Assembly: GCF_000830005.1 (NCBI RefSeq)
Contig: NZ_CP010407.1
Span: forward strand, 8,803,143 to 8,867,142
From: Streptomyces vietnamensis
GTDB lineage: Bacteria; Actinomycetota; Actinomycetes; Streptomycetales; Streptomycetaceae
Direction of reading: 5' to 3'
Length of the DNA: 64,000 nt
A model generated the notes under the pieces. The model ran no database searches. It was not told the origin of the DNA and saw only the letters and a program-made list of their open reading frames with translations. The position numbers and the translations under genes were made by a program. The stretch's first letter is position 1; every line of letters starts with the position of its first letter. Positions 40,466-64,000 of this stretch are shown one piece after another.

Positions 40466-40503
40466 CAGGAGCACTCCTTGCTGGGGTCGATGAAAGGTGG
40501 GGG

Positions 40504-45906: not shown

Positions 45907-45997
45907 GACCCGAACGGTAGGGGCCGCCACTGACAGGCGGTGGCCCAACCGGAGGAAGACGCACGTGGGCGGTACTCTCTTCATGCGAGGAACCTCA

Positions 45998-47166: not shown

Positions 47167-47244
47167 TGGTGAGTACCTGGTCGCTTGGGTCGCTGTCTGC
47201 TGCGGTCATACCCCGGGCCTTACCACCGTGCTTACTATGGCTGC
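47167..47244 (+). repeat. Class B leader-like block, copy 1
   Basis: GGTCGCTTGGGTCGCTGTC and CCTTACCACCGTGCTTACTA lie between a decayed repeat and a run of clean repeats. Four other copies start near 48136, 51636, 54008 and 62499. Confidence 0.7.
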
Positions 47245-47635
47245 TCTCCGCACCCGCGGGGATGGTCCCGACGCTGACTGGTACATGGCCAAGACAGGTG
47301 GCTGCTCCCCGCACCCGCGGGGATGGTCCCGCGGTGGAGGGTGCGGAGGGCATCGACCTGTTCTGCTCCCCGCTTGCGCGGGGATGGTCCCTCCACCGGA
47401 CCCACCTGCTCCGAGCAACGGACCTGCTCCCTGCACCTGCGGGGATGGTCCCGTGCCGTAGGTCGTCTCGGCCGCGATGCCGATCTGCTTCCCGCACCCG
47501 CGGGGATGGTCCCGCGTGGATCACCGGCTCCGGCCCCCACGGCATCTGCTCCCCGTACCCGCGGGGATGGTCCCTCGCAGCCGAGCTCGCCGGACTTGAT
47601 GCCGCCCTGCTCCCCGTACCCGCGGGGATGGTCCT
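47245..47635 (+). CRISPR. CRISPR array 1b, clean repeats
   Basis: Seven well-conserved repeats at about 47245, 47301, 47363, 47424, 47485, 47546 and 47607 following the class B block. The sharp return to canonical CTGCTCCCCGC...GCGGGGATGG suggests a new array unit begins here. Confidence 0.9.
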
Positions 47636-47888
47636 TTGGTTTCTTTGGGGTCAATGCCCGGGCGGGCTGCTCCTGTTTACTGGGGGCCTGGGGCGACCTG
47701 TGTCATTTCGTGTGGGGTTCTGGGCCGGCCGTCCGTGCTCGGGGGTGGGGTTGCGGACGGCCGGTCGTTGGGGCACCTGTCCTGTCGGGTGCCCTGTTCT
47801 GACCGTACGCTGTGGTGGGCAAGAAACGCCTGTAGCAGCGCTGCTGTTCGCGCCGGGGCGGGTGATGTGGCCTGGCATTCGGCCGAGC
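47636..47888. other. Non-repeat gap between arrays
   Basis: About 250 bp without repeats or a gene. It contains a dyad near 47729-47769 (GGCCGGCCGTCCG and CGGACGGCCGG) that could form a strong hairpin and end array 1b transcription. Confidence 0.5.
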
Positions 47889-47927
47889 CGCTACTCCCCG
47901 CGCCTGCGATCGCCGACGGGAGAGTCT

Positions 47928-48137
47928 GTTCCCCGCTGGCGTGGGGATGGTCCCAAGCCGGGGACTTGGCGCGCGTGGGCGTGCCCGTGCTCCCTGCCCC
48001 CTGCGGGGATGTTCTTGCCGTGCTCGTGCCTGGACCGACACGGCCGGCTGCTCCCCGTACCCGCGGGGATGGTCCCCTTCCGCCTGCGCCGGATGCGACG
48101 TACCAGTACTGGTCCCCGCGTCCGTGGGGATGGTCGG
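47928..48137 (+). CRISPR. CRISPR array 2a
   Basis: Four repeats from about 47928 to 48137, with a further very degenerate unit near 47889. The second has an altered loop (CTGCCCCCTGC) and the third (48049) is canonical. The last runs into a class B block. Confidence 0.8.
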
Positions 48138-48212
48138 TGTTCCGGTCGCTTCGGTCGCTGTGTGGTGCCAGGTGTGGTGGGTATCGACCGGTGTACTGAC
48201 CATGCCTGCTCT
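48136..48212 (+). repeat. Class B leader-like block, copy 2
   Basis: GTTCCGGTCGCTTCGGTCGC, a 9-bp tandem-like pair, is followed by GGTGTACTGACCATGCCTG directly abutting the next repeat. The layout matches copies 1, 3 and 5. Confidence 0.7.
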
Positions 48213-49283
48213 CCGCGCCCGCGGGGATGATCCCGTCCACGGCGGCGTGATCGACGAGGTGCACGTCTGCTTCCCGCACCCGCGGGGGATGGTCCCTTCG
48301 GGGGGTCCGCCGGGATGCTCGCCATCGACTGCTCCCCGCCTGCGCGGGGGTGGTCCCCAGGACGCTGGCGACCTGAGCGCCGCGGCTTTCTGCTCTCCGC
48401 GTCTGCGGGGATGGTCCCAAGGACCTGCGCGAGCTGACCGCCCGCGACCGCTGCTCCCTGCGTCCGCGGGGATGGTTCGTTGCACAGGTACTACAGCTCG
48501 TCGGCGAAGAGTCGTTCCCCGAATTTGTGGGGATGATCCCATCTCACAGACGTGCCTGGATGACCTGATGCGTTGCTCTTCGCGGCCGCGGGGATGGCCC
48601 CAACGCTGCCCAGGTGAAGGAACGCTACGCCGGCTGCATCCCGCACCTGCGGGGATGGTCCCGGCATCCTCCTGGACGGTCTGCACATCGACGCCTACTC
48701 CCCGCCTGCGCGGGGATGGTCCCGCGGCGACCGTCGCGTTCAAGGCCGACGCGCCCTGCTCCCCGCGCCTGCGGGGATGGTCCCTTCTCGGAGCTTGCGG
48801 TCCGGCGCGGCATGGACTGCTCCCCGCACCCGCAGGGATGGTCCCGCCGCGAAGGCGGTGCCGCGCGGGTCGGCGGTCTGCTCCCCGCATCCGCGGAGAT
48901 GGTCCCATGGTGGTGGCGGCGAACTGCATCCAGTCGCGCTGCTCCCCGCATCTATCTGCGGGGATGGTCCCCACAGGGCCATGACGGTGTCCGTCAGGCC
49001 CTTCTGCTTCCCGCGCCTGCGGGGATGGTCCCGGGACGATCCTCCGCGACGCCCGGAGCTGCTACTGCTCCCCGCACCCGCGGGGATGTTCCCGCGCACA
49101 TCGTCCTCGACCTGCGCCACCACTTCTGCTTCCCGCCCCCGCTGGGATGGTCCCGAGCAGATCCGGGACGTGAATACGTTGTTCCTCACCTGTTTCCCTG
49201 CCTGCGCGGGGATGGTTCCTCGCCGCCGGTCGACGAGCTGGTGCGCCCGGCGGGCCTGCTTCCTGCGTTGGCGGGGTTCGGGG
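48210..49283 (+). CRISPR. CRISPR array 2b
   Basis: About eighteen repeats at 60-62 bp steps. Most keep the palindromic stem, with several loop variants (ACCC, CCTG, TGC-type). The last unit near 49257 (CTGCTTCCTGCGTTGGCGGG) is heavily mutated and leads into a class A leader. Confidence 0.88.
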
Positions 49284-49364
49284 TGGGGGTGTCTGGTTTG
49301 CCGGTTTCGGTGAAAGTAGTTCAGATGGTGTTGTGTGTGGGGTAGAACTGCAGGTCACGGAGCC
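49217..49364 (+). promoter_or_regulatory. CRISPR leader, class A, with duplicated tail
   Basis: The last spacer (CGCCGGTCGACGAGCTGG), the last mutated repeat and the leader (GGTTTCGGTGAAAGTAGTTC; GGTAGAACTGCAGGTCACGG) together form a 148-bp block. It recurs almost unchanged at 52508-52658. The leader proper starts near 49290 and touches repeat 1 of array 3. Confidence 0.8.
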
Positions 49365-50182
49365 TGCTCCCCGCACCCGCGGGGATGGCCCCGAACCCGC
49401 CCAGTGCGAAGCCGCCCCTAAGGGCTGCTCCCCGCACCCGCGGGGATGGCCCCCGCACCCGCAGCGAAAGGCGTTACGGCCGGCGCTGCTCCCCGCACCC
49501 GCGGGGATGGTCCCGAGCTGCGCGACGGGTGGCTCGGAACCGTGCACTGCTCCCCGCACCCGCGGGGATGGCCCCCCCGGGCTGGCGACACCGCCGCCCG
49601 CGAGGGTCTGCTCCCCGCACCCGCGGGGATGGTCCTGTGCCAGGTCAAGCTCAGCGAGGGCCCGGCCGCTGCTCCCCGCACCCGCGGGGATGGCCCCGCG
49701 ACGGCGAACCTGCGGTCGCTCGTGAATCCCTGCTCCCCGCACCCGCGGGGATGGTCCGGAGGGGCACATGTCCTACCGCCCCCACCCCACCTGCTCCCCG
49801 CACCCGCGGGGATGGTCCCCGTCGGTCCACTGGTCCCGCAGCAGGGAGCACTGCTCCCCGCACCCGTGGGGATGGTCCCATCGTGGTCGTTTCGAGGTGC
49901 CAGGGTTCGGCCTGCTCCCCGCTCGCGCGGGGATGGCCCCTGGCCGAGGTCACCCTCGTAGCCGAGACCGAACTGCTTCCCGCGCCTGCGGGGATGGTCC
50001 GTATAACGCTCGCGACTGCGAGGTAGCGATCGACTGCTCCCCGCCTGCGCGGGGATGGTCCCGTCCTGCGCTTCAGGGACGGCTCCGATTGCTGCTCCCT
50101 GCCATGCGCGGGAGTGGTCTCGAGGCCCGGGTCTGGTTCGAGCTGGCATCGTGCTGCTCCCTGTCTGTGAGTGGAGGGTCCC
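49365..50182 (+). CRISPR. CRISPR array 3
   Basis: Fourteen repeats at 49365, 49426, 49486, 49547, 49608, 49669, 49730, 49791, 49851, 49912, 49973, 50034, 50092 and 50154. The first eight are canonical with loop ACCC; the last two are degraded. The clean end is at the leader. Confidence 0.95.
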
Positions 50183-50242
50183 GCGCGTCGGCGTCGTCGT
50201 TCTTCGGGGCGTGGTGGGTGCTGTTGAGCAGGGGCGGCAGGT

Positions 50243-50280
50243 TTGCCGCACCCGTGTATACGTGAATGTATACTTGGGTT
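50243..50280 (+). promoter_or_regulatory. Promoter/operator of the toxin-antitoxin pair
   Basis: Two GTATAC half-sites at 50256-50261 and 50268-50273 form a 12-bp-spaced repeat of palindromes. TATACT (50269-50274) fits a -10 box, which would start transcription at or next to the ATG 50281 and give a leaderless message. The antitoxin would bind these sites for autoregulation. Confidence 0.6.
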
Positions 50281-50544
50281 ATGTCTGATGCGATGATCAG
50301 GGTGCCTGCTGAGGTTCGTGACCGGCTGGCGGTGATTGCCGAGTCCCGCGGGGTGTCGATCCGGTCTCTGGTTCAGGAGTTCGCGGAGTCGACGTTGACG
50401 GAGGAGGAGCGTCGTGAGCGGGCGGAGCGGACTCGGGGGTATCTCGCCGAGCATTTCGGTGTCGAGGTGAGTGACGAGGAGAGCGCGGCGATGGGCGCCA
50501 GGCTGCGTGAGGCGTTTGCCGGCCGGCGGGGTGCGGCCGCGTGA
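50281..50544 (+). CDS. Ribbon-helix-helix antitoxin
   Basis: An 87-aa protein starting MSDAMIRVPAEVRDRLAVIA. IRVPAEVRDRL followed by ESRGVSIRSLVQEFAEST is a ribbon-helix-helix DNA-binding fold, and the charged C-terminal tail is the likely toxin-binding segment. Its stop overlaps the next gene (GTGA at 50541-50544). It lies between CRISPR arrays 3 and 4. Confidence 0.8.
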   Translation: MSDAMIRVPAEVRDRLAVIAESRGVSIRSLVQEFAESTLTEEERRERAERTRGYLAEHFGVEVSDEESAAMGARLREAFAGRRGAAA

Positions 50545-50927
50545 TCCTGCACCATCTGGTTCTCGATGTGACGGCTCTGTCGGCGTTGTCGGGGAACAGG
50601 CAGGTGTCCGCGTTGATCCACCGGGCTCATTTCGAGGTGGAGACGCGGCTGTGGGTGCCGGTGCTGTCGGCTCTGGAGGCCGACCGCGAGCATCCCGGGC
50701 TGGCGGAGCACCTGGGACAGCTCGACGTCCTCCACACGGTGGACCTGGACTATCCCGCGATGCTGACCGTGGCCCGGCTTCGTGGCGAGGGTGTGGCGCC
50801 GGGTATCGGGGCTGCGATCCACGTCGTGCGGCATCTGCCCCAGTGGGGCACGGACGCACTCGTGGCCACCGTCGATCCGAAGGCGTACGAGGGACACGGC
50901 GTGGCGTTGTTCGACCTCAACCGCTGA
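50541..50927 (+). CDS. PIN-domain toxin-like protein
   Basis: A 128-aa protein starting at GTG 50541. HLVLDVTALSAL gives Asp9, EADRE gives Glu46, and WGTDALVATVDPKAYEG gives Asp105 and Asp112, the acidic set of a PIN ribonuclease. The fold fits a VapC-like toxin, but the lead motif VLDVTAL is less standard than VLDTS. It is co-transcribed with the antitoxin. Confidence 0.75.
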   Translation: MILHHLVLDVTALSALSGNRQVSALIHRAHFEVETRLWVPVLSALEADREHPGLAEHLGQLDVLHTVDLDYPAMLTVARLRGEGVAPGIGAAIHVVRHLPQWGTDALVATVDPKAYEGHGVALFDLNR

Positions 50928-50997
50928 GACCACCAGCCACCTCCAGGCCAGAGTGACGACTGCTCCTGGCCGGCGCAGCGATGCCCCAGACCCCCAA

Positions 50998-51635
50998 CTC
51001 CTCCCCGCCTGCGCGGGGATGGTCCCGGGCCGCGACCGAACTTCTTACCGACGGCGCTCTGCTCCCCGCTCGCGCGGGGATGGTCCCAACCCGGCCTGGA
51101 TCGAAGTCCGCGACATCGGCTGCTCCCCGCACCTGCGGGGATGTTCCCGACTGCCCCCGCGGCGTGCCCAAGCACTCCCTCTGCTCCCCGCACCCGCGAG
51201 AATGGTCCGACTGACGGGGGCCGTAACACTTGCCGCTCGTGCTGTTCCCCGCATCCGCGGAGATGGTCCCACGGTGACCATCACGAACGCCTACGGCTGC
51301 CTCTACTCCCCGTTCGCGTGGGGATGGTCCCGTCGACCGGAACCGCCGGCGGTTCCTACTGCTCTGTTCCCCGCCTGCGCGGGGATGGTCCCGTCTGGCT
51401 GGACGGACCAGCCAAGGAGCCGATCTGCTCCCTGCGTGTGCGGGGATGGTCCCCTGGGTCATGCCTTCCCACGGGGATAGGTGGACTGCTCCCTGTCTGC
51501 GCGGGGATGGTCCTCCCTCGGGCAAGAAGGTGACCTCGTCGTAGTACTGCTTCTCGCGCGTGAGGGGATACTCCCGCGCTCGTTGACGCCCAGGCCGTCA
51601 CCGGGCTCTGTCCTCCGCTCGCGTGGGGGCGGTCG
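50998..51635 (+). CRISPR. CRISPR array 4
   Basis: About eleven repeats from 50998 at 60-62 bp steps. The first is clipped (CTCCTCCCCGCC), right after the toxin gene. The last two (near 51547 and 51608) are strongly mutated. There is no class A leader before it, so the toxin-antitoxin segment probably interrupts an older array. Confidence 0.88.
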
Positions 51636-51747
51636 GCGTTCCGGTCGCTTAGGTAGCTTTGGTCGCGGTGCTCCGTGGGGTGTGGTGAGTACCGACGGGT
51701 GTACTGACCATGCCTGCGGTGCGCTTACCACCGCGCTTACCATGGCT
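51636..51747 (+). repeat. Class B leader-like block, copy 3
   Basis: GTTCCGGTCGCTTAGGTAGC, then GGTGTACTGACCATGCCTG and CGCTTACCACCGCGCTTACC, ending at the first repeat of array 5. It is the longest copy, with an internal repeat of CGCTTACCA. Confidence 0.75.
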
Positions 51748-52507
51748 GCTCCCCGCCTGCGCGGGGATGGTCCCTCGTAGTCCACGCCCTCGCGGAGCCA
51801 GATGCCCTGCTCCCCGCACCCGCGGGGATGGTCCTGCCTTCTGGGTGTCCTCGCTCTTCGTACCGAACTGCTTCCCGCGTCCGCGGGATGGCCCCTGGCA
51901 GCGCGGTTTTGGTCTGTTCTACGTCAGCTGTTCCCCGCGCCCGTGGGGATGGTCCCAAGGTCCTTCCCGAGGTCAAGGGCAAGCTCTCCTGTTCCCCGCG
52001 TGTGTGGGGATGGCTTCGTTCTGACCGGGTCCGGGGCGGCGCTGGTCTGCTCCTCGCCTGCGTGGGGTTGGTACCAGGCAGTCTGGAGAAGGTTCCATCG
52101 CCGTCGTCTGTTCCCTCGCTTGCGGCGGGAATGGTCAGAGCACGGCGCTCGGTTATGGCCTGCTGGAGAGGTCCTCCCTGCTCGCGCGGGAATGGTCCCT
52201 GGCCGCGCTCCACCCGGACGTGAAGACCACGCTGCTCCCCGCGCACCTGCGGGGATGGTCCCTGCGTCAACCCCGCGCACCTCGAACTCACCGGCTGCTC
52301 CCCGCTTGCGCGGGGATGGTCCCGCGACGGACCTGCGCGGCAACGCCAACGCGACGTGTTCCCCGTATCTGCGGGGATGTTCCCGGCATGGATTAGAGCC
52401 CGCCCCCGGGTTCGAACTGCTCCCCGCGCTCACGCGGGGATGGTCCCAGCTGCGCCTACAGGAGGTTGATGGCGTCCTACTGCTTCCCGTATCTGTGGGG
52501 GAGGTTC
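51748..52507 (+). CRISPR. CRISPR array 5
   Basis: About thirteen repeats. The first two (51748, 51807) are canonical. Later units vary in stem and length, including a unit near 52108 with TGCGGCGGGAATGG. The polarity again is clean to decayed from the block. Confidence 0.88.
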
Positions 52508-52658
52508 CCTCACCGCCGGTCGACAAGCTGGTGCGCCCGGAGGACCTGCTTCCCGCGTTGGCGGGGTTCGGTGTGGGGGAGGGGTGTCTGGTTTGCCGGT
52601 TTCGGTGAAAGTGGTTCAGATGGTGTTGTTGGTGGGATAGAACTGCAGGTCACGAAGT
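52508..52658 (+). promoter_or_regulatory. CRISPR leader, class A, with duplicated tail
   Basis: Second copy of the terminal-spacer, mutated-repeat and leader block described for 49217-49364. GGTTTCGGTGAAAGTGGTTC and GGGATAGAACTGCAGGTCAC precede repeat 1 of array 6. Confidence 0.8.
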
Positions 52659-54011
52659 CTGCTCCCCGCCTGCGCGGGGATGGTCCCACGACGCCCATCA
52701 CGGCGAGGCCCGCGAGGACCTGCTCCCCGCCTGCGCGGGGATGGTCCCTCGCCCTCTTCCTCGGACCCGCGCCACGGCATCTGCTCCCCACCTGCGCGGG
52801 GATGGTCCCACCCGGAGTGGGCGGCGGAGACCTGGGGGCGGCTGCTCCCCGCCTGCGCGGGGATGGTCCCCAGTCGATCCCGTCGGCCATGTGCCCGACC
52901 GTCTGCTCCCCGCCTGCGCGGGGATGGTCCCGTGCGGATCGGCTTGTCCCCGATCCGGACTCCCTGCTCCCCGCCTGCGCGGGGATGGTCCCGAGCCCAT
53001 CGAGGGGAAGCCCAAGACCACGGTCTGCTCCCCGCCTGCGCGGGGATGGTCCCCGGATGGACGCCGTGGTCACCAAGGCGATCCACTGCTCCCCGCCTGC
53101 GCGGGGATGGTCCCTCCGGCGCGGCGCACAACCTCGCCGGGATGAGCTGCTCCCCGCTCGCGCGGGGATGGTCCCAACATCCAGAAGTTCAGCCCCGCCG
53201 TGCCTGGCTGCTCCCCGTACCCGCGGGGATGGTCCCCACCACACGTGGCAGGCCGCGGCTCGCAAGTACTGCTCCCCGCGCCCGCGGGGATGGTCCCGCG
53301 GAGATCCGCGATCAGTGGACCGACCTGATCTGCTCCCCGCGTCCGCAGGGATGTTCCCTGGCCCGTGGTCTACCTCACCGCCCCGAACACCTGCTCCTCG
53401 CACCTGCGGGGATGGTCCCCTGCTCCGGTCCCAGGCTGGCTACCACGAAGGCTGCTCCCCGCACCCGCGGGGATGGTCCCGATGCGACGTCCGCCGCACG
53501 GTTGGCCCAGTCCTGCTCCCCGCACCCGCGGGGATGGTCCTGACCGTACCGTCAAGGTGCGTACTGCGCCCTCCTGCTCCCCGTATCCGCGGGGGTGTTC
53601 CCTCGAAGAACTCTTGCCGTAGGAACCGGGCGGTCTGCTCCCCGCGTGCGCGGGGATGGCCCCGCTGGGCCACCCTCCTCGACGAGCTCAGCGTTCTGCT
53701 CCCTGCACTCGCGGGGGATGGTCCTGCCAAGCGCCGGCGCCATGGCTGCGTCACCGGCTGTTCTCCGCGCCCGCGGGGGGTGGTCCCGGCGTGATCGTCG
53801 TCGGCGAATTGGTCGGCGACTGCTCCCTGCGTCTGTGGGGATGGCCCGGCGGTGTCGAGCACCGGCCCGCGCTTGGTTGGCCGCTCCCCGTGCGGAGGGT
53901 GTCCGACTTCGTGGGTACGGCTGCTTCCCGGTTGTGCGGGGTTGGTCCCGAGTGCGTGGCGTGTGCGTTCACGCCGGCGGTCTGCTTCCCGGTTGTGCGG
54001 GGGTGGTCTGT
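52659..54011 (+). CRISPR. CRISPR array 6
   Basis: About twenty-two repeats from 52659. The first eight or so are identical with loop CTGC; changes accumulate to the right. The last units near 53921 and 53982 read CTGCTTCCCGGTTGTGCGGG. It is the longest clean run and a class A leader precedes it. Confidence 0.95.
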
Positions 54012-54095: not shown

Positions 54096-54315
54096 CTCGT
54101 TCAACTGCTTGTCGGCGGTGTGGGTTTTTGTATCGGTGGGGGCGGGTTTGGGTGTGTCTGGATGTGGCCGGGAGCGTCAGGGCTCTGGTGGAGTGTCTGG
54201 GGTAGGCGGGGTGTCTGGGGTGTGATTTTGCGGGTGTCTCCGCTTCCTGATGCCGGGTGGCTGGGAGTGTTATCCCGTGGTTGCCCTTTGTCGAGTGCGC
54301 ATACGCTCTTCGTTG
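54096..54315. other. G/T-rich spacer, no gene
   Basis: The plus strand is strongly rich in G and T and poor in A and C. No ORF or repeat is convincing. Confidence 0.4.
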
Positions 54316-54667: not shown

Positions 54668-54806
54668 CGAAGAAGCCCCTTGTTGGAAAGCGGCAGGTCG
54701 GGGGGCTTTTTGGTCGGCAGGGTACTTCTTGCCCTTGGGCGATGGGTGATGCGGTTTGTGCATAGGGGGTGGGTGGATGGCGTATGCGTTTTCTGTATGC
54801 GGGTGG
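54668..54806 (+). repeat. Left copy of island-flanking direct repeat
   Basis: Contains the terminator, GGTCGGCAGGGTA and two motifs 34 bp apart (TGATGCGGTTTGTGCAT and GTATGCGTTTTCTGTATGCG). The same order recurs at 62711-62880, with GAGTCGGCAGGTA and GTATGCGTTTTCTGCATGCG. Confidence 0.65.
54673..54712 (+). terminator. Rho-independent-like terminator
   Basis: AAGCCCC at 54673-54679 pairs with GGGGCTT at 54702-54708, followed by TTTT. It ends the L7/L12-like gene 27 bp after its stop. Confidence 0.75.
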
Positions 54807-55024
54807 TGCGATCTTTCGGTTTTGGGGCAGTGGTGTGAGAGACAGTCGGGTGTTGGTGTGTTGTTGCTGGTCAGGGGATGTTTTGTGGTGTGGGTTCACT
54901 GTCGTGGGAGTGAGAGATCGGGGTGGGCGTGCTGTCCTAGGGGTGTTATCGCATGACGGGTGAGGTTGTCTCAGTTTCGTGAGTTCTGATCCGCCGGCCG
55001 GTTGATGGTTGGTGTGCTCGGTGA

Positions 55025-56818
55025 GTGATTCAGGAGGAGCGGCCAGGGGTCTCTGGCGGGTCGGACAGCGTGCCGGCTGGTGCTTTGCCGGCTGTGTCGG
55101 TTCGGGCTTTGCGGGGACTTGCGGTGCGCTGTCTGCTGGCTTTGCGGCGGGAGGGGAAGCTCACTACTGCGAGGGTGCGGTCGGTGGCGGACGTGTTGGG
55201 TGTGCGGGAGCGGGCGGTGTGGCGGTGGCTGGCTGCCGCTGAGCGGGACGAGGCTGCGGCCGCGGCGCCGGGGGAGCGGGCCGTGTGGCACGGGCGGTTC
55301 ACGGTCACGGACGAGGTCCGGGCTCTGCTGGCGTTGTGGAAGGGCAACGTCGCTGCTGTCCACCGTGAGTTGGCCGCTCGCGCGGCCAGGGGTGAGGGGG
55401 AGCCGCCGCCGTCGATTCCGACGTTGCATCGGGCGATCGGTCGTGATCTGTCGCCGGGGGAGCGGGCGGGGTTCGCGGGTGGGGAGCGGGCGGCGCGTAA
55501 GCATGATGTGTTCCTGGCCCGGCCGCGTCCCTGGCGGAACCAGGTGTGGGAGACCGACCACCTGCAGGCGCCGGTGCTGGTCGACGTCGACGGCAAGCCC
55601 CGCAGACCGTGGATCACCTGGTTCACCGACTGCGCCACCAACGCGATCACCGGTGTCGCGGTGACACCGGTGCATCCGTCACGGGAGTCGGTGCTGGCCG
55701 GCTTGCGCTCCGCGGTCCTGCGCGAGGACCCCTACGGTCCGTTCGGCGGTCTGCCGGAGAAGGTACGAGTGGACCGCGGCAAGGACTTCCTGTCCAAGAC
55801 GGTGACCGCGGCGTTCACTGTCTTGGACGTGAGGGTGGAGGATCTGCCCGCTTACACCCCTCACCTCAAGGGCATGGTGGAGGGCCTGAACCGGGCGGTG
55901 GAGAGCATGTTCCTGACCGCGCTGCCTGGCTACGTCCGCCAGCCGCGCCCCGGCAAACGGGCTGCCCGCCCGAAGGACGAGGTGCTGCTCAGTTTCGAGG
56001 ACTTCACCGCCCGGCTGCTGGACTGGACGCTGTGGTGGAACACCGAGCACCGCCCCGCACCCCTGCAAGGCAGGACTCCGCTTGAGGCGTGGCAGGACGA
56101 TCCCACCCCGCTGCGGGACGTGCTGGCGACGGATCTGTGGACGTTCACTCTGGAGGACGCCGGCACCCGTACGCTGACCACCCGCGGCATCCGCTTCCAC
56201 AAACGCGACTACGTGGGCCCGTGGATGACCGGCCAGGCGGGAATCCGGGTCCGCGTCCGCTTCATGCCGCACCATGACCACCGTATCGAGGTCTACCACG
56301 CCACCACCGGCCGTTATCTCGGTCCCGCGGATCTGGCCGATCAGGCCACCGACGAACAGATCAGCGCCGTACGCAAGGCACGGGCTGCCCGTGCCCGCCG
56401 CCTGAAGAAGGACCTCCAGGCCTCCCAGCGCGAGCGCTACGCCGCCGCCACCCAGGCCGAAGCCCCCAAGCGGCTCGGCGCGCTGACCGCCGCCCAGGCC
56501 CAGGCCGAACTCGCCGCCGCTGATCACACCGATGTGGCCCGGCTGGCATTGCCGGATCTGATCCCGCCGGCCGCGCCGCCGGCCGGGTGGCGCACTCCTG
56601 CTTCCCTGGCCGCGCTGACCGGCCCCGGTCGGCCCGGTTCAGCATCACGCACTCAAAACGGCTCCCCACCCGCTTCAAGCGGCGCCTCTGTCCCAGAAGC
56701 CCCTCACGGGCAGACGGCACCTGTCCCCGCCGACGACGCAGACGCCTCGTCCCCTACCTCTACCGACGACGGAGACGCCTCGTCCCCTACCTCTACCGAC
56801 GACGGAGACGCCTCGTGA
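55025..56818 (+). CDS. TnsB/Mu-type DDE transposase
   Basis: A 597-aa transposase of the Mu/Tn7 TnsB group. An N-terminal HTH (SVADVLGVRERAVWRWLAAA) precedes the RNase H core: VWETDHLQAP (D178), VRVDRGKDF (D250) and LKGMVEGLNR (E286), giving a D-35-E spacing. A Mu C-terminal beta region (GIRFHKRDYVGPWM) and a basic helical tail follow. Its C terminus holds an 11-residue repeat, DDGDASSPTST. Its stop overlaps the ATPase start (GTGA). Start GTG 55025; a GTG at 55070 is possible. Confidence 0.85.
   Translation: MIQEERPGVSGGSDSVPAGALPAVSVRALRGLAVRCLLALRREGKLTTARVRSVADVLGVRERAVWRWLAAAERDEAAAAAPGERAVWHGRFTVTDEVRALLALWKGNVAAVHRELAARAARGEGEPPPSIPTLHRAIGRDLSPGERAGFAGGERAARKHDVFLARPRPWRNQVWETDHLQAPVLVDVDGKPRRPWITWFTDCATNAITGVAVTPVHPSRESVLAGLRSAVLREDPYGPFGGLPEKVRVDRGKDFLSKTVTAAFTVLDVRVEDLPAYTPHLKGMVEGLNRAVESMFLTALPGYVRQPRPGKRAARPKDEVLLSFEDFTARLLDWTLWWNTEHRPAPLQGRTPLEAWQDDPTPLRDVLATDLWTFTLEDAGTRTLTTRGIRFHKRDYVGPWMTGQAGIRVRVRFMPHHDHRIEVYHATTGRYLGPADLADQATDEQISAVRKARAARARRLKKDLQASQRERYAAATQAEAPKRLGALTAAQAQAELAAADHTDVARLALPDLIPPAAPPAGWRTPASLAALTGPGRPGSASRTQNGSPPASSGASVPEAPHGQTAPVPADDADASSPTSTDDGDASSPTSTDDGDAS
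56732..56816 (+). repeat. 33-bp tandem repeat at the transposase 3' end
   Basis: Two and a half near-identical 33-bp units (56732, 56765, 56798; each with GAGACGCCTCGTCCCCTACC) encode DDGDASSPTST repeats. They end exactly at the stop/start overlap with the ATPase gene. Confidence 0.85.
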
Positions 56819-57207
56819 CCGTGGCCACCTACCAGTACGTCGATCTCCCGGATGCCTGTGTGGTCACCACCCGCGCCCTGCTCACGGCCCGGGAGAACAT
56901 CACCGACACCGTCGCCGCCCGCGCGATGATGTGCATCCACGGCGACGCCGGCTTCGGCAAGACCCTCGCCGTCAACACGTGCCTGCGTGAACTCGAGCCC
57001 GCCGAGGACGTCCGCAAGATCACCTTCCGGGCCCGGCCCACTGCCCGTGCGGTCCGCTATGAACTGTTCACCGCTCTCGATCTCGCCGGCGAGCCACCGC
57101 GCCATCCCAGTGAGTTCGACCGCCTGCTGAAAACCGCCCTGGCCGAACGCCCCCGTACCTTCCTCGTCGACGAGGCCCAATGGCTCAACCCGGAGGCGTG
57201 TGGATGA
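56815..57207 (+). pseudogene. TnsC-like ATPase, truncated after Walker B
   Basis: A 130-aa N-terminal part of a transposition AAA+ ATPase. Walker A is GDAGFGKT at 43-50 and Walker B is TFLVDEAQWL near 115-124. Family members run to 250 aa or more with sensor and arginine-finger regions. Here the frame ends six residues past Walker B (NPEACG, TGA 57205-57207). The following G/T-rich sequence is unrelated, so the 3' half was replaced. Confidence 0.8.
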
Positions 57208-57321
57208 GCCGGTTGTTTCGCTGGTGGGGGTTGCTGTTCGGCTGGTTGGTCGTTGGGTTCGTTGGTGGCGTGGTGGTTGTTCAGGTGCTGCCTTCAGCTT
57301 GATGGCCGGCGGGGTGTTGTG

Positions 57322-58377
57322 GTGGGTGCGGGGAAGCGGGGTGGTCTGCGGCTGGTCGAGGGCGGGCCGGCTGGTCCTGACGCCGGGGTGGATCCGTGGG
57401 TGTTTCAAGCCGGGTGTGTTCAGGCGTTCGCGAGGACGTGGGTGGTGCGTGGGTTCGCCCCGACGACGGTCCGCGGCTACAGCTCGCTCCTGAACCGGGT
57501 GCTGGGGCGTTTTGACTGTCCGGTGTGGGCGGTGGACGCCGATGACGTGGATGAAATGCTGCACGCCCTGGCTGTGGCCGGCTTGGCTCCGGGGACGCGT
57601 CGGCAGTACCTGCAGATGCTGCGTGCCTTCCACGCCTTTGTCGCCGAGCGGTACGGGGCCCAGGTCCGTTCGGTGTTCGGTGTGCCGATGGGTGACGGCG
57701 GGCTCGACCGGTTCAATCGTGTGCGGCACGCCGGTGATGACTCGCCCACGGGGGCGCCTCCTGGCCGGGAGCGGTTGCAGGCGTTCTTCTCTTTCGTCCG
57801 GTCCCAGGTCGCGGTCGGGGCGGACTACCGGGTCATGGCTCGGGACTACGCGTTGCTGCGCACGCCATATCACTCAGCGGTCCGGGTGAATGAGCTGGTG
57901 TGCCTGGACCAGCAGGATGTCCATCTGCACCTGGGGCCGTCGGGGAAGCTGCACGTGCGGTTCGGGAAAGCGGCGAACACCTCGGGGCCGCGCCCGCGGT
58001 GGGCTCCGATGCTGGAGGGCCTGGATCGGATCCTGGCCTGGTACCTGCAGGACGTCCGGCCACTGTTCCCTGCGACCGCGCCGCTGTTCTGCGACGAGGA
58101 CGGTCAGGCGCTGAAGGCGGACACCGTCCGGGATCGTCTGGCCCGTCTTCTCGACCTTGAGGGTGCGGGCGGGGGTGAGCGGTTCACGCCTCATGCGCTG
58201 CGCCGTGCATGCGCGACGCACCACTACGAGCGGGGCATGGACCTGCTCGCGGTCCAGCAGCTCCTCGGCCACCGCCATATCGCCTCGACGATGGCGTACG
58301 TGAAGCCGTCGCAGAAGTTCATCGAGGACGCCTGGCGGCGTGCCACCGACTTGGCTGTTCGCACGCTGGCAGGCTGA
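57322..58377 (+). CDS. Tyrosine recombinase/integrase
   Basis: A recombinase of about 351 aa. The N-terminal core-binding domain (FAPTTVRGYSSLLNRVLGRF) precedes the catalytic domain. SAVRVNELVCLD gives the first Arg near 187, HALRRACATH gives H-x-x-R near 291-294, and LLGHRHIASTMAYV gives His near 316 and the Tyr nucleophile near 326. All key residues are present, so it is probably active. The start is uncertain (GTG 57319 or 57322; the frame is open to 57253). Confidence 0.85.
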   Translation: MGAGKRGGLRLVEGGPAGPDAGVDPWVFQAGCVQAFARTWVVRGFAPTTVRGYSSLLNRVLGRFDCPVWAVDADDVDEMLHALAVAGLAPGTRRQYLQMLRAFHAFVAERYGAQVRSVFGVPMGDGGLDRFNRVRHAGDDSPTGAPPGRERLQAFFSFVRSQVAVGADYRVMARDYALLRTPYHSAVRVNELVCLDQQDVHLHLGPSGKLHVRFGKAANTSGPRPRWAPMLEGLDRILAWYLQDVRPLFPATAPLFCDEDGQALKADTVRDRLARLLDLEGAGGGERFTPHALRRACATHHYERGMDLLAVQQLLGHRHIASTMAYVKPSQKFIEDAWRRATDLAVRTLAG

Positions 58378-58394
58378 CCATGGGAGGCGAGTGC

Positions 58395-58760
58395 ATGACT
58401 GCGTCAGGACCTGTGGTCCCGGAGCCTGCGGTGTGGGGGGTCGAGTGGCGGCTGCGGATGGCCGCGGCGGAGCGTGGCGTGTGGACGGGGACTCAGCTTC
58501 GCCGGCTTCTGGCCGAAAGGGCGGGTCTGGACCTTTCGCCGGCCTCGGTGTCCGCTCTGTTCACGAAACAGCCGTCCCAGGTGAAGCTGTCCACCCTGGC
58601 TGCCCTGTGCACAGCCCTCGACTGCGCTCCTGGAGATCTGCTCGTCCTGCGCTCTGCAGGACCGGCCGCGGTCTCGGCGCCGCCCGGGCCGACGGACTCG
58701 CGACATGCCCCCGCTCCACCGCAGCGGCTCCTTGCGACACGGTCACTGCCTCCGCTGTAA
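58395..58760 (+). CDS. Small XRE-like HTH protein
   Basis: A 121-aa protein. WTGTQLRRLLAERAGLDLSP and SVSALFTKQPSQVKLSTLAA form a Cro/C1-type helix-turn-helix, followed by LCTALDCAPGDLLV and a Pro-rich tail. The ATG at 58395 has GGAGG seven bases upstream; an ATG at 58380 is also in frame. It lies between two integrase-like genes and is probably a local regulator or an excision accessory factor. Confidence 0.75.
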   Translation: MTASGPVVPEPAVWGVEWRLRMAAAERGVWTGTQLRRLLAERAGLDLSPASVSALFTKQPSQVKLSTLAALCTALDCAPGDLLVLRSAGPAAVSAPPGPTDSRHAPAPPQRLLATRSLPPL

Positions 58761-58810
58761 CCAGCGGAAACCACCGTCCACCCCTCGCATTCTTCGGCGG
58801 ATCTCATCGC

Positions 58811-60301
58811 ATGGCCGCTTCCGTTCCCGATGCCGTTCAGGGCCGCTGCTCGGCCTGTACGAAGCTGCGCTGGCTACGCCCCGGCACCGGCCTGTGCGCC
58901 TGGTGTTCGCGTACGTGCCCGGGCTGTGGCGGTGGCAGACGTTCGGCGGATTTGGTGTGTTCCGCGTGCCGGCGCCGTGCAGCGGGCCGGCCGGCGCTCG
59001 GCCCGTGTCAGCGCTGCGGCCGGCGCCGGATCCTCGACGCCGCTGCCCAGTGGTGCCGGCCGTGCCACGATCCGGCAAGCGCCGAGCCGCTCGCCGCCTG
59101 CGTGGGATGCGGCACCCTGTCCCAGTGGGCGCGAGGCCTGTGCAAACGCTGTTACGAGTACTCACCCCGCACCGTGAAGACCCGCGCCGCCGGCTGGGCC
59201 GGCCGCATGCCGCGCACCCCTTGGTGGTGGGATGCCTTTGCCGCGCATCTGGCAACACACCGCCACCCCTTCCACGCCGCCGATGTCCTCACCCGTATCG
59301 CCCGTCTCGTCATCGACACCGGCTCCACCGCCCCGCACACACTGCTCGCCGACGCGCACCGGACCAGCCCCCGGCTCAGCCCGCCGCTCGCCGACTTCTT
59401 CCACACCCACCGCCTCCTCGACACCCCCACCGACACCAAGGACACGCAAGCCGCAGCTCGCCGCGAGCGCCGGATCCAGGCCGTCCCGGCCCCGCTGCGC
59501 CCTGCCGCACGCGCCTTCGCGGAAGCGCTGGTGGCCCAGCGCCAGAATGCTGAGCGCCTGGGGCTGCGACCGAATCAGCTCAAGACCATCGAGATCCGCC
59601 TCGACACCGTCCGGGATCTGGCTCTCCACATCCACGCCCAGGGGCGCCCCGCCTGGGCGAGCGTGACCGCCGGCGACCTGGAGACGTTCCTGGCCCGCAA
59701 TCCGCCTCGCAGGGCCTCCTGGCTCGCAGGACTGCGGCAGTTCTTCTCCCACGCCCACCACACCGGCCTGGTGCTCCACAACCCTGCCGCCGCCCTCCAC
59801 GTCTCACAGCCCCGCGGTTTCCGGGGTACCACCCTCACCCTCGATGAGCAGCGCGCCCTCTACCGCCGCTGGAACACCCACACCGACACCCTCCCGCACG
59901 AGGCATTCATCGGGCTCGCCGCGCTGCTCCACGCCGCCACCACAACCGAACTCCGCCATCTCACCCTCGACCACATCAGCACCCGCTCCCAGGCCGTACG
60001 TTTCCCCGGACGCAGCATCGACATCACTCTCGACACCGCCACGTGGACAGCCCTGGAACGCTGCCTCGCCCACCGCACCACCCTGCACACGGCCAACCCG
60101 CACGTTCTGGTCACCCGGCTCACCAGAACCACCACCCGTCCCGCCAGCCCGGCGCACATCCGCGACAGCCTCACCCCGGTCGGCTTCCTCCCGCGCATCC
60201 TGCGGTCCACACGGCTGCTCACCCTTGCTGACGAACTCGACATCAAGCAGCTCACCGTGGCGCTGGGCATGTCCTGTGCCGGAACCGCCCACTACCGGTA
60301 G
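58811..60301 (+). CDS. Zinc-cluster, integrase-like protein
   Basis: A 496-aa protein. Residues about 10-120 contain many CxxC groups (CSACTKLRW, CAWCSRTCPGCGG, CQRCGRR, CVGCGTLSQ, CKRCYEY), a set of zinc ribbons. The rest has an integrase-like helical domain (LKTIEIRLDTVRDLALHIHA) and a recombinase-like core. The catalytic Arg region reads AATTTELRHLTLDHI, and the C-terminal block MSCAGTAHYR replaces GH-x-Y. Catalytic residues look incomplete, so it may be a non-catalytic partner of the upstream recombinase. Confidence 0.65.
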   Translation: MAASVPDAVQGRCSACTKLRWLRPGTGLCAWCSRTCPGCGGGRRSADLVCSACRRRAAGRPALGPCQRCGRRRILDAAAQWCRPCHDPASAEPLAACVGCGTLSQWARGLCKRCYEYSPRTVKTRAAGWAGRMPRTPWWWDAFAAHLATHRHPFHAADVLTRIARLVIDTGSTAPHTLLADAHRTSPRLSPPLADFFHTHRLLDTPTDTKDTQAAARRERRIQAVPAPLRPAARAFAEALVAQRQNAERLGLRPNQLKTIEIRLDTVRDLALHIHAQGRPAWASVTAGDLETFLARNPPRRASWLAGLRQFFSHAHHTGLVLHNPAAALHVSQPRGFRGTTLTLDEQRALYRRWNTHTDTLPHEAFIGLAALLHAATTTELRHLTLDHISTRSQAVRFPGRSIDITLDTATWTALERCLAHRTTLHTANPHVLVTRLTRTTTRPASPAHIRDSLTPVGFLPRILRSTRLLTLADELDIKQLTVALGMSCAGTAHYR

Positions 60302-60419
60302 AGCTCTGAGCAGCCAGCACACCCCGAGCCGCCCATGGGTCCGGCCGTACCTCAGAGTGCCACCCCGCACAGTCCTGCTCCTGCCGTGTCGCGGGGGCCG
60401 ACGGGGGAGAGGTGGTGGG

Positions 60420-60489
60420 TGGTTTGTCACCTTCGGTGAAAGTGGTTCAGGAAGTGCTAGCTGTCGGGTACAACTGCAGGCCAGGAAGT
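60420..60489 (+). promoter_or_regulatory. CRISPR leader, class A, of the mini-array
   Basis: CACCTTCGGTGAAAGTGGTT, then GGGTACAACTGCAGGCCAGG, directly before repeat 1. It is the most diverged of the four class A leaders. Confidence 0.75.
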
Positions 60490-60702
60490 CTGCTCCCCGC
60501 ACCTGCGGGGATGGTCCCGACGATGACGTCGACACGACGGGCGGCAGCAGCTGCTCCCCGCACCTGCGGGGATGGTCCCATCGTGGGCGAGACCGCCGCA
60601 GGAGGGTTCGGCCTGCTCCCCGCACCTGCGGGGATGGTCCCCGGGCCTCTCCGGCCCCCTCGCCCGCGGCTCCCTGCTCCCCGCACCTGCGGGGATGGTC
60701 CC
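60490..60702 (+). CRISPR. CRISPR mini-array of four identical repeats
   Basis: Repeats at 60490, 60551, 60613 and 60674, all with loop ACCT and no mutations, enclosing three spacers. Their uniformity contrasts with the long arrays and suggests a young or selected array. It lies inside the recombinase/transposase block. Confidence 0.95.
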
Positions 60703-60978
60703 GAGAGACGTTGTCGTTCTGCCCTCCGCACTTACGGTGAGTTCCGCTGCGTGCTCCCGGGCAGAGTCTGCAATCCCCTCAGAGCTCAGGTGCAGCCGCG
60801 CTGCCGCCTGCTGCTCCCGGGCGGTCTCCGCGAAAGCCGTTCGACGGGAAAGTGGGCAGGAGGGCCTCTGCACGACACGGGTCATTGAGGTCTTTTGCCG
60901 GGCTCTCCGCTACCCCTAACTCCTTGCCTCCCGACCCGAAGCTGACTGCCGGCTACGCGATGTCAGTACGTTGAGAAT
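60703..60978. other. No gene; promoter side of zinc-finger gene
   Basis: A mutated repeat-like fragment (CTGCCCTCCGCACTTACGG) lies near 60719 but off the array period. The remainder is non-coding. Confidence 0.4.
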
Positions 60979-61536
60979 GTGGCCGACAACGAGGCAGACC
61001 GTAACCCGTTTCATAAAGAATGTCCTGAATGTCGAGAGAATACGTGGATAGATCCCTATCCACCAGAGCGTGGTCGCGGGCGGCCACGGCTCTACTGCTC
61101 GGAGGCCTGCCAGCGAAGAGCGAGACGGAAGTTCACGGCCCCGTACCAGCCTGGCGAAGATCGCCCCTGCGCCCATTGCGGTGAGAACTTCGCTCCCCGA
61201 GCCGCGACCGGCCGGCCGCCGCTGTACTGCTCTCCCAGCTGCAGACAAGGCGCCAACCAGCAACGCAAGTACGACGACTACCGCGCGTGGTCTCAGGTCG
61301 CAGCCGTCACTGCTCGCCTAGCTGACCTTCGCGACGACATCCACTCAAGGAGGACCCGAGGATCCGTCAAGGAGTTCCAGGATCTTGAGGCCGAGCTCAA
61401 GTCCCTGCTCACAGTGGTGCAGTACAGGCTCCACGCCGCATCCCTGGAGGGGCCGCCCAATAACCGCAGTTTCGTCAATGACGAAACTGCGGCGCAAAAT
61501 TGTGACCCCCCTCCGGCGGCCGGAACATCTTTGTAG
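60979..61536 (+). CDS. Two-zinc-finger protein
   Basis: A 185-aa protein from GTG 60979. Two similar Cys4 fingers are visible: CPECREN with YCSEACQRRARRKF, and CAHCGENF with YCSPSCRQGANQQR. A helical segment (LADLRDDIHSRRTRGSVKEF) follows. The finger spacing fits treble-clef DNA- or RNA-binding modules. Its 3' part contains a strong palindrome. Function unknown. Confidence 0.7.
   Translation: MADNEADRNPFHKECPECRENTWIDPYPPERGRGRPRLYCSEACQRRARRKFTAPYQPGEDRPCAHCGENFAPRAATGRPPLYCSPSCRQGANQQRKYDDYRAWSQVAAVTARLADLRDDIHSRRTRGSVKEFQDLEAELKSLLTVVQYRLHAASLEGPPNNRSFVNDETAAQNCDPPPAAGTSL
61464..61492. repeat. 13-bp perfect inverted repeat inside the zinc-finger gene
   Basis: CCGCAGTTTCGTC and GACGAAACTGCGG are separated by AAT. 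There is no T-run after it, so it is not a standard terminator. It overlaps coding sequence 44 bases before the stop. Confidence 0.85.
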
Positions 61537-61668
61537 CTCGCCCCGCGAGTTCTGAGTCCGACACCACTCCTTAAGGAGAGGTGCGGGCTCTTTCGCTTGT
61601 CCGGAGCCCTGCACCCCGCCCTCAGGAGTGCAGGGCTCCTGGCACTCCTGCCTGGGGCTCACAGCAGA

Positions 61669-61706
61669 GCCTGCTCGCCCCCACCTGGACAGTGCGGCGA
61701 GCAGGC
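61669..61706 (+). promoter_or_regulatory. Hairpin upstream of small membrane protein
   Basis: GCCTGCTCGCC at 61669-61679 pairs perfectly with GGCGAGCAGGC at 61696-61706. It lies 20 bp before the ATG at 61727 and could be a 5'-leader structure or the end of the upstream transcript. Confidence 0.55.
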
Positions 61707-61726
61707 CCGAGCCGAAGGGCACAAGG

Positions 61727-61963
61727 ATGAACACCTGGCACCTCGACCTAGACGTCATTGTCTTGCTCCTGGTCGGCCTCCTGGCTGCATACGCGGCCCA
61801 CCAGTGGAAGGAACTGGCGACACCCATCACCGTGGGCGTCATCGTCGTGACCCTCCTCGTCCTCCTGGTCCAAGGACAGGGCACCCCCGAACAGCGAGGC
61901 GAGCAGCCAGCCACCTGTACGCCGCAATCAGCTCCCGCCTGCAACAACGGCAGGTCGAACTGA
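61727..61963 (+). CDS. Small two-helix membrane protein, paralogue
   Basis: A 78-aa protein starting MNTWHLDLDVIVLLLVGLLA. Helix 1 is DVIVLLLVGLLAAYAAHQW and helix 2 is ITVGVIVVTLLVLLVQGQG, then a Thr/Pro/Cys-containing tail. It shares its two-helix core with the 56-aa protein at 37210-37380, so the pair flanks the whole cas, array and transposase region. Function unknown. Confidence 0.65.
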   Translation: MNTWHLDLDVIVLLLVGLLAAYAAHQWKELATPITVGVIVVTLLVLLVQGQGTPEQRGEQPATCTPQSAPACNNGRSN

Positions 61964-62019
61964 ACTACGGAAGCCTTGAGCGGGGCCCTGCCGACCCGGG
62001 TATCGGCAGCGCCTTGCCG

Positions 62020-62051
62020 ACAGTGGGTTTTACGGCCGTAAAACCCACTGT
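62020..62051. repeat. 32-bp perfect palindrome
   Basis: The left arm ACAGTGGGTTTTACGG is followed immediately by its exact complement, with the centre between 62035 and 62036. There is no loop, so it would form a cruciform or bind a symmetric protein. Confidence 0.95.
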
Positions 62052-62594
62052 GTGGTGAGTGGGGGTTGGGCGTGGTGAGAACCGCCCTGAGAGGCTTCAG
62101 GCTGTTTTCCCAGGTGGATGGATGAGTTGAGAGGTGAGAAGCGGGCTTACCACGGGGCCGCGGCCACACGGCCGGGGTGGCTGGGGCCTGGCCTTGGTGG
62201 CATGCCTCTGGGGCGTGGTCGGGCGTTGAGCCGGTCATAGAGTCTCTTGCGATGACCGCCGGTGATCCACGCCGATGTCCTCGACGGCGAGTTCGTGTCC
62301 GTGCTGAGCCAGGAGTCGCTCCACTTCATCTCCACCATTCCGGATGAAGACCGTCCGTGAGGAAGGCGCCCTGCGCCCCGCCGACCACGTGACCCAGGCC
62401 GTACTCGGCGCGCAGGCCTCGGCGACGGCCGCTGCACCCGAAAGAACCTGCTGCTCACCCGCCCCCACTCGAACTGCACCCCGCTCCTGCGGGGTGTTCG
62501 GATCTCGGTCGCTTCGGTCGCTGTGTTGTTCGGGGTGTGGTGAGTTGCTGGTGTACCGACGCATGCCTGGGTGTGCTTACCACCGCGCTCACCC
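62052..62594. other. Non-coding, with repeat and class B block copy 5
   Basis: Contains one copy of a direct repeat (CTGTTTTCCCAGGTGGATGG at 62102) and a class B block from 62499 (TCTCGGTCGCTTCGGTCGCT, GTGCTTACCACCGCGCTCAC). No ORF is convincing. Confidence 0.55.
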
Positions 62595-62720
62595 TGGCTG
62601 CTCCCCATACATACGGGGATGGCCCCGGTCCGCGTCGGATTCAGACGCGATGAGGCACTGCTCCCCACCACCGGTTACCGCCTCGCCTGCTCCCCGCGCC
62701 CGCGGTGTGTTCAAGCCCTT
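62595..62720 (+). CRISPR. Relict CRISPR array after class B block
   Basis: Repeat-like units near 62599 (CTGCTCCCCATACATACGGG), 62659 and 62690. The second and third are damaged. It begins right at the end of class B block copy 5. Confidence 0.6.
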
Positions 62721-62880
62721 GGTCGCTCCAGCCGCCGGCTGTCTCTTCTCTCCTCGTCGGGGGCTTTGAGTCGGCAGGTAGTTAAGGGGTGGCGCCCTCT
62801 GCTTTTCGTGCCTGCGGGGGTGATGCGTTTTCTGCATACGGGGTGATGTATGGAGTATGCGTTTTCTGCATGCGGGGTGG
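62711..62880 (+). repeat. Right copy of island-flanking direct repeat
   Basis: Carries AAGCCC at 62713, GGGGGCTTTGAGTCGGCAGG near 62756, and two motifs 33 bp apart (TGATGCGTTTTCTGCATACG at 62821 and GTATGCGTTTTCTGCATGCG at 62855). It matches 54668-54806 in the same orientation. Confidence 0.65.
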
Positions 62881-63650: not shown

Positions 63651-63657
63651 ATCGTAG

Positions 63658-63673: not shown

Positions 63674-64000
63674 AATTTTCGAGATAGACCCCCTTGCATC
63701 ACGTAGAGTGACACCTCGTCGTCCTGGCCGACTCCGGAACACCACCCCATCCGCGCACCGTGACCGCTCCACGCGCACAGCAGGAAGCCGGCACACCTCT
63801 GCCGGCCCCGCAGGGGCCCACCACACCCCACCACCGACAACCTCATCAACCACCAAGCAAACCAACCAACTTATCAGCACCACACCCCGCCGCAGGCGGG
63901 TGCCCAACCACAAACAATCCCCACCCCACACCCGCACCCCTCAACCCAACCCGCACCACCCCGCGGTCACCGCAGGTGACTGCCCCTCAGGCAGCCAGCC
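63674..64000. other. A/C-rich end of window, no gene assigned
   Basis: The plus strand from about 63720 is rich in A and C and nearly free of G in places. A leftward ORF (63937-63515) spans it but has no recognisable features. Confidence 0.4.

Follow-up and report, generated by a model that had tools for sequence, protein, structure and literature searches.

Telomeric transposons, Tsy elements and type I-E CRISPR (clustered regularly interspaced short palindromic repeats) systems without cas1 beside tnsB and tnsC are each already known. This study concerns the right end of the Streptomyces vietnamensis chromosome (assembly GCF_000830005.1, contig NZ_CP010407.1, positions 8,803,143 to 8,867,142, forward strand), a stretch of 64,000 nucleotides termed the window, in which a Tn7-like transposon has its tnsC cut by a Tsy-like recombinase element. 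Tsy elements are described in the available text of Faure et al. 2023 (PMC10293859) as targeting the Walker B codons of comM, with the 3' portion of the target lying downstream of the element. According to the same text, ZooTsy uses a tyrosine recombinase (YRec), a helix-turn-helix (HTH) protein and TnsF; a 12-bp homology arm, a 135-bp end1 and a 20-bp end2 are sufficient, and comM has to provide a Walker B segment of 10 bp. Type I-E systems of Streptomycetaceae without cas1 and cas2 beside tnsB and tnsC are a published pattern (Faure 2019, as reported in part of PMC12231136), while a CRISPR-associated transposon, CAST I-E5, is named on telomeric transposons in the available text of PMC12669027. 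Turnover is fast at the ends of linear Streptomyces chromosomes, and the accessible portions of PMC7205883 and PMC5869714 attribute it to homologous recombination and break repair.

An initial annotation of the window had treated the 8-kb block at its right side as a single repeat-bounded element. A stack of mobile parts at the chromosome end was found instead, and the block probably represents two nested, end-associated mobile elements, of which the Tsy-like one would swap distal arms by a single crossover.

Junctions in TnsC-like ATPase genes

The YRec, HTH and TnsF-like genes of the Tsy-like element (int1, HTH and int2, together the trio) were compared in 19 loci with a readable left junction. 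Fourteen loci came from 13 plasmid records with more than 60% int2 identity (one record gives two), and the window, L034, L125, L127 and L132 complete the set, while L133 was not counted as it begins inside the trio. All 19 trios start inside an ATPase gene, and in 17 of them the distance from the first base of the Walker B Asp codon to the trio start (TGTGG) is exactly 30 nt. Besides tnsC and a divergent tnsC, the interrupted genes comprise HTH-AAA paralogues of two or more types and another ATPase gene. Near-identical trios with different upstream genes become similar from 4 to 42 bp left of the junction onwards. Near-duplicates are included (L084/L120/L121; L082/L122 by backbone; L075/L124), so that the independent events number fewer than 19.

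Both exceptions to the 30-nt offset, L075 and L124, have one shared arm with the Walker B codons missing, and this element may be locked in place. They lie on two plasmids of strain NBC_01727, in which 16.2 kb reaching the end (12003-28221 of L075, 9101-25319 of L124) are common at 100%.

One arm on two backbones

The movement of an arm is visible in L082 (NBC_00455), L122 (NBC_00466) and L123 (NBC_01023). L082 and L122 have a common backbone, with one difference between -7900 and -120 and no difference between -120 and -16 relative to the junction, while L122 and L123 have no same-strand 200-bp match left of -42. To the right, L122 and L123 show 0 differences from +1 to +4400, followed by 100% identity over 8401 bp with one 44-bp indel, to within at most 23 bp of the record end. 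The common arm from trio to end measures about 13.4 kb and stands on unrelated backbones, joined to two ATPase types.

The last 15 bp before the junction, termed the tag, differ between the two ATPase types. Intact type-A sites carried the A tag with 0-1 mismatches in 15 of 15 cases, whereas intact type-B sites (n = 15) had 5-7 mismatches to it, 12 of them lying within 2-3 of the L122 tag; near-duplicates are included in both counts. L122 combines a type-A ATPase (99%) with a B-like tag, whereas in L123 the exact A tag follows a type-B ATPase (74%). The exchanged tags imply that the tag travelled with the arm and place the exchange point in the Walker B codons. Together, the shared arm and the exchanged tags argue for site-specific swapping of chromosome arms. 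This suggests that Tsy-like elements may carry whole chromosome ends, telomere included, between linear DNA molecules.

The change of partner in L122 falls between -28 and +176, and its 15-bp tag is unlike both putative parents. Homologous recombination alone was considered for the L122 arm and rejected, as it leaves this tag unexplained.

The second end and a two-ended insertion

The C-terminal half of the ATPase was found 3' of the trio in 0 of 19 loci (tblastn, E <= 1e-3; at least 4.3 kb of downstream sequence each) with queries from two ATPase types, so that a diverged C-half, such as the L084 type, could escape. Eleven of the loci extend to the record end. L125 (via L136, L135 and L134) and L127 (via L126) were traced to the contig end, and the sole C-half met belongs to a separate intact tnsC in L134, near the end. 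A palindrome resembling end2 was absent in 13 of 13 arms scanned and present in three of three two-ended relatives scanned, the pattern itself being derived from these relatives. Among the 13 plasmid records, the best copy lies at most 56 kb from the record end, and at most 13 kb in 10 of them. The second boundary of the Tsy-like element therefore looks like the telomere.

Two relatives keep both halves of their target. The trio of L087 (Rhodococcus, ZPP; 3170-6560) interrupts an IS256-type transposase gene, and that of L088 (3220-7729) splits istB at residue 208, while L090 was not counted as two-ended since its istB match (residues 1-61) lies about 5 kb away. L087 and L088 perhaps belong to a family favouring genes of other transposons. 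Among 26 recombinases placed in a tree, the 14 that are end-associated cluster together with a support of 100/100; as the two-ended relatives keep both halves, a single ancestor of the end-associated clade probably lost its second end.

The main rival explanation is later loss: an ordinary two-ended Tsy insertion into tnsC-like genes, with the second end and the ATPase 3' half removed afterwards through the instability of Streptomyces arms and their replacement by other recombination. L087 and L088 speak for it, as does the subtelomeric turnover by homologous recombination documented in the available part of PMC7205883. The same holds for L074, where a hypothetical gene and tpg, the normal followers of an intact tnsC, are kept 3' of the trio, an arrangement that fits insertion plus deletion equally well. 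The search of the 19 loci without a 3' half found, the 13 arms in which the end2-like palindrome was not found and the arm common to two unrelated backbones with exchanged tags are less easily accommodated, and later loss is considered rather unlikely.

Proposed mechanism

Under the preferred reading, arm exchange by single crossover, a Tn7-like transposon with one recognisable end, tnsB and tnsC would have landed near an older chromosome end. The left end of a Tsy-like element would then have become linked to tnsC at the fixed spacing of 30 nt, counted from where the Walker B Asp codon begins, and the element would have brought along its own distal arm (57199-64000) with the trio, the mini-array and the telomere-like end. 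The TnsF-like protein is predicted to recognise the Walker B DNA that is conserved among TnsC-like ATPase genes, where crossover would take place with YRec. As no second end is detectable in the clade, a single crossover between two linear replicons would swap all distal DNA, telomere included, and the exchange may be reciprocal. The resident transposon would lose the 3' half of tnsC, by which it was presumably disabled and TnsC function abolished.

The wider claim is that the Tsy-like clade, having lost its second end, consists of telomere-swapping machines, which by one site-specific crossover at the Walker B codons of a TnsC-like ATPase exchange arm and telomere between linear replicons and thereby parasitise chromosome ends already occupied by Tn7-like telomeric transposons; for this claim, the arguments appear evenly balanced. 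If true, an enzyme would stand behind end turnover, with a target rule (a spacing of 30 nt to the Walker B codon) and a footprint of 15 bp countable in closed genomes. Among mobile elements with the telomere as one boundary, DDE transposons would also be joined by a second class, whose target is another transposon's helper ATPase.

Several observations weigh against arm exchange, among them L074, the restriction of the C-half queries to two ATPase types and the origin of the end2 pattern. Arm movement is visible in a single natural set (L122 and L123 with L082), the other loci showing the target rule and not exchange. The right flanks of 13 arms are of about seven kinds by eye, which means that arms are also reshuffled in other ways. 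Copies of the trio lie as far from an end as 56 kb (L083) and 65 kb (L125) and are read as buried, and several are damaged, with int2 split or partial in L034, L075, L124 and L125 and int1 partly seen in L127. As for the window, its last 1.4 kb had no match among the plasmid records, and its arm is without the helicase and tpg genes found on other arms. The opposite (left) contig end begins within an insertion sequence (IS)-like copy, where the assembly is thus probably incomplete, and the window's contig end may accordingly not be the true telomere.

Features of the window

The right edge of the window is base 8867142, the last base of the contig, which places the block at the assembled replicon end. 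Nearly all listed relatives of this genome are Streptomyces. From left to right follow the I-E operon, the large arrays, tnsB, the 5' half of tnsC, int1, HTH, int2, the leader with the mini-array, and about 3.3 kb to the end (Table 1).

Table 1. Positions of annotated features in the 64,000-nt window
Feature	Position	Strand	Basis or remark
Type I-E effector operon cas3-cas8e-cas11-cas7-cas5-cas6	37711..45984	-	PADLOC; outside the transposon
Large, partly decayed I-E repeat arrays, several leaders	46103..54010	+	Repeat scan
Subtelomeric repeat copy, just outside the transposon end	54744..54803	+	87% over 60 bp to second copy
Tn7-like transposon terminal sequence (TGCGATCTTTCGG...)	54807..54830	+	Homology start common to 33 further loci
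tnsB, DDE transposase, full length	55025..56818	+	Mu-transpos_C and rve profiles; PADLOC TnsB
tnsC 5' half, AAA ATPase with Walker A and Walker B	56815..57207	+	New stop soon past the junction
30-nt target segment: Walker B codons (DEAQ), then 15-bp junction tag	57169..57198	+	Same offset in 17 of 19 loci
Tsy-like element left end (TGTGGATGA...), upstream of the recombinase	57199..57312	+	Sharp junction common to other loci
YRec (int1), tyrosine recombinase, XerC/D-like	57253..58377	+	Longest frame; 57313 is an alternative start
Small Cro/C1-type HTH protein	58380..58760	+	HTH_26, E 1e-11
TnsF-like protein (int2): N-terminal cysteine-rich zinc-ribbon-like region and tyrosine-recombinase domain	58811..60301	+	Fold, cysteine motifs
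CRISPR leader on the arm	60302..60489	+	74% over 99 bp to 52561-52658
Mini-array: four identical 29-nt repeats, three spacers of 32-33 nt	60490..60702	+	Repeat scan
Subtelomeric repeat copy, current arm	62818..62876	+	Local alignment to first copy
Terminal palindromes, telomere-like	63760..64000	+	DNA fold and contig end position

Streptomycete telomeres are described in the available text of PMC4513846 as packed palindromes. Folded as DNA, the last 241 bases of the window reached -36 kcal/mol (z -4.33), with none of 200 shuffles as good. In a search of 199 genomes, the last 1.3 kb gave no more than short, weak matches outside the own genome. Scans of the window with Rfam (gathering cut-offs) and for tRNA genes returned nothing.

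Direct repeats at 54668-54806 and 62711-62880 had been proposed to bound the block. The similarity between them is real, covering about 60 bp at 87%, with a local alignment score of 80 where 300 shuffles reached no more than 29, and is thus not due to chance. As element ends they were rejected, since both copies are directly oriented, only about 60 bp are alike and the transposon end at 54807 lies inside them; they look like subtelomeric repeats instead. From one copy just outside the transposon end and the other near the present end, 54.7 kb is perhaps a buried older chromosome end.

In 33 other loci, homology to the window begins at 54807 or no more than a few bases from it; these loci have TGCGATCTCTCGG-like ends and different visible flanks. 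Alignments starting at query 150-175 were kept, and L010, L051, L078 and the window's own copies were left out; the second copy in L062 begins inside the end, while L003 and L015 start at the boundary with their flanks unseen. As this homology boundary is common and the visible flanks differ, 54807 marks a real transposon end. Its sole exact match in the window is itself, and no other such end was found there.

The initial annotation named a TnsB-type transposase, a cut TnsC-like ATPase, two integrase-like proteins and a small regulator, all of which are borne out. The closest PDB relative of TnsB is the solved TnsB 7svw (E 3e-12), and the motifs WETDH, VRVDRGKDF and GMVEGLNR stand at residues 175, 247 and 283, in line with the profile and PADLOC matches. 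The tnsC piece corresponds to residues 1-127/128 of intact homologues of 247-248 aa and is cut after codon 128. With tnsB whole and tnsC reduced to about 128 of 247 codons, the intact pair of a telomeric Tn7-like transposon is not present, and the window transposon appears to be a relic. TniQ, said to be missing from the block, had no match among the eight open reading frames (ORFs) scanned in or beside it, smaller ORFs lying outside the scan. Many intact relatives carry an HTH-AAA ATPase, tnsB, tnsC (247 aa), a protein of about 360 aa, a small Tpg-like protein encoded in the opposite direction and, in many cases, a helicase; of these, the window is without the HTH-AAA gene and everything in tnsC past codon 128. 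In the 20 plasmid records listed, relatives of the transposon lie mostly near record ends. An additional protein, encoded upstream of tnsB in L077 (12284-13465) and many other loci, has a TnsB-like region at its N terminus and a TnsC-like ATPase behind it.

The first integrase-like protein, int1, was recognised by sequence (Phage_integrase, E 2e-20), with Xer proteins as PDB relatives. The profile search gave no recombinase match for int2, which was assigned by a tyrosine-recombinase fold over residues ~226-496. Its putative zinc fingers were judged from cysteine motifs and a weak DZR_2 match (E 0.045), while Arg468 is invariant and Tyr495 nearly so, which appears compatible with an active site. 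Close recombinase relatives (E <= 1e-115) occurred in 5 of 382 genomes of the genus, the own genome included. In L079 (12142-16940), an annotated TnsA-transposase-ATPase-TniQ set lies distal to a trio, near the end of plasmid NZ_CP107922.

Further features were observed outside these elements. A perfect 32-nt palindrome (ACAGTGGGTTTTACGG and its complement) stands at 62020-62051 on the terminal arm, and an ORF with a ribosomal L7/L12 C-terminal domain (54250-54645) follows the last decayed array and precedes the transposon end. Two ORFs, 28592-28918 (-) and 33833-34159 (+), have the same N-terminal sequence in inverted orientation and flank IS21-type genes (30761-32973). The IS-like copy at the left contig end (L072, 1-1148) is 99.7% identical to window 14180-15328.

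CRISPR components and guided transposition

The leader and four perfect repeats reported on the arm were recovered as a mini-array of identical 29-nt repeats. Besides the match at 52561-52658, leader-like matches occur at 49285-49357 and, further left, at 34835-34864. The segment 60302-62700 matches 103 plasmid records, 99 of them Streptomyces; among the 30 matches listed, only the leader and array align. Cas3 has an HD profile match, and its HD residues are present. Cas1, the one adaptation gene searched for, had no match in the own genome (PF01867; control positive in 9 of 14).

A guided telomeric transposon similar to CAST I-E5, with the nearby Cascade and the mini-array guiding TnsB and TnsC, would draw on the I-E operon about 9 kb from tnsB, on the lack of a Cas1 match and on the published I-E variant in which tnsB and tnsC replace cas1 and cas2, as well as on the naming of CAST I-E5. 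The Cas operon (37.7-46.0 kb) and the large arrays are separated from tnsB and tnsC by the only transposon end found (54807), so that by physical position the CRISPR-Cas system is not inside the transposon, and the mini-array lies on the recombinase arm; tnsC is cut as well. The initial annotation had already noted that no Cascade lies within the block, and its Tn7-like element beside a type I-E system holds, with tnsC cut, while a link between the two as a guided transposon is not supported.

Relatives of the cas proteins in the window were rare in a survey of 69 tnsB loci with flanks of at most 10 kb (2 of 69: L049, and a cas6 piece in L013), as were arrays (2 of 69: L013 and L036). The recombinases were present in one locus (L034), and no array lay beside recombinases in the other loci scanned. 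The recombinases also occur in other ATPase genes. This pattern corresponds to what the initial annotation had named as evidence against its reading, namely transposase, recombinases and mini-array at unrelated places in related genomes.

None of the three mini-array spacers had a convincing target among the matches listed. The lowest E values were 0.02 for phages (Komagataeibacter) and 3 for plasmids with spacer 1, 4 and 0.9 with spacer 2, and 0.9 and 0.06 with spacer 3, for which a 15.6-kb Streptomyces autolyticus plasmid is a weak lead (89.7% over 29 nt). Against the collected loci, the 96 spacers of the window gave 7 matches with at least 20 identities, all partial, compared with 4 in five shuffled sets (480 spacers); this small excess is unexplained and was not used for any conclusion. 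The suggested spacer matching therefore gave no usable target.

Guided transposition via the mini-array was rejected, as its spacers gave no convincing target among the matches listed. There is no evidence of guided transposition at this locus, despite the published association of tnsB and tnsC with I-E systems without cas1, and a guided transposon is regarded as very improbable. Neither form suggested earlier, a decayed guided transposon or an element with its own guide array, is supported, given the cas operon and large arrays outside the only transposon end found, the interrupted tnsC, the unmatched TniQ and a mini-array that rides on the recombinase arm, with weak spacer matches only among those listed.

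Chance stacking of mobile genes, with breakpoints from homologous recombination and no site-specific event, is the least probable explanation because different ATPase genes are joined at one and the same base (17 of 19 with the 30-nt offset) and the L122 tag differs from both putative parents. In its favour, homologous recombination within the trio can spread arms among closely related plasmids, and the L122 partner change lies between -28 and +176.

Comparison with known systems

A telomere-bounded Tsy-like element was described in no title or abstract beginning returned by the literature search, whose coverage left out most subscription papers, including Hsieh et al. 2025 (Science 387 eadp1973, cited in PMC12669027), which may already cover part of these findings. 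As cited there, telomeric transposons resemble the window in having Tn7-like TnsB and TnsC near the end of a linear Streptomyces replicon and a single recognisable end, while in the window tnsC is interrupted and the distal arm replaced by that of a recombinase element.

The I-E systems with tnsB and tnsC, as far as the available text describes them, correspond to the window in the operon cas3-cas8e-cas11-cas7-cas5-cas6, the genome without a Cas1 match and the tnsB and tnsC piece nearby. In the window, however, tnsB and tnsC lie about 9 kb away on the other strand, and the transposon end excludes the cas genes. The two-ended relatives (Rhodococcus, Mycobacterium and internal Streptomyces loci) have a homologous trio, with identities of ~38-47% for int2 and ~44-57% for int1, and differ in their targets (IS256-type transposase in L087, istB in L088), in keeping both halves and in the palindromic right end of the three scanned.

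By its description in PMC10293859, Tsy agrees with the window element in the gene order YRec, small HTH, and TnsF-like protein with zinc finger and recombinase domains. The 5' portion of the target likewise lies upstream of YRec, and the junction keeps a constant, short spacing to the Walker B codons of an AAA ATPase gene. Roughly 114-128 bp precede the YRec start (start codons uncertain), and a short homology segment lies beside the end. The 15-bp tag that came with the arm is likened to the ZooTsy homology arm beside end1, part of the sufficient donor. The target in the window is a TnsC-like ATPase gene and not comM, and the element is called Tsy-like, not Tsy, because the target 3' portion was found in none of the 19 loci; where the described Tsy elements have this portion downstream, the second boundary of the window clade appears to be the telomere.

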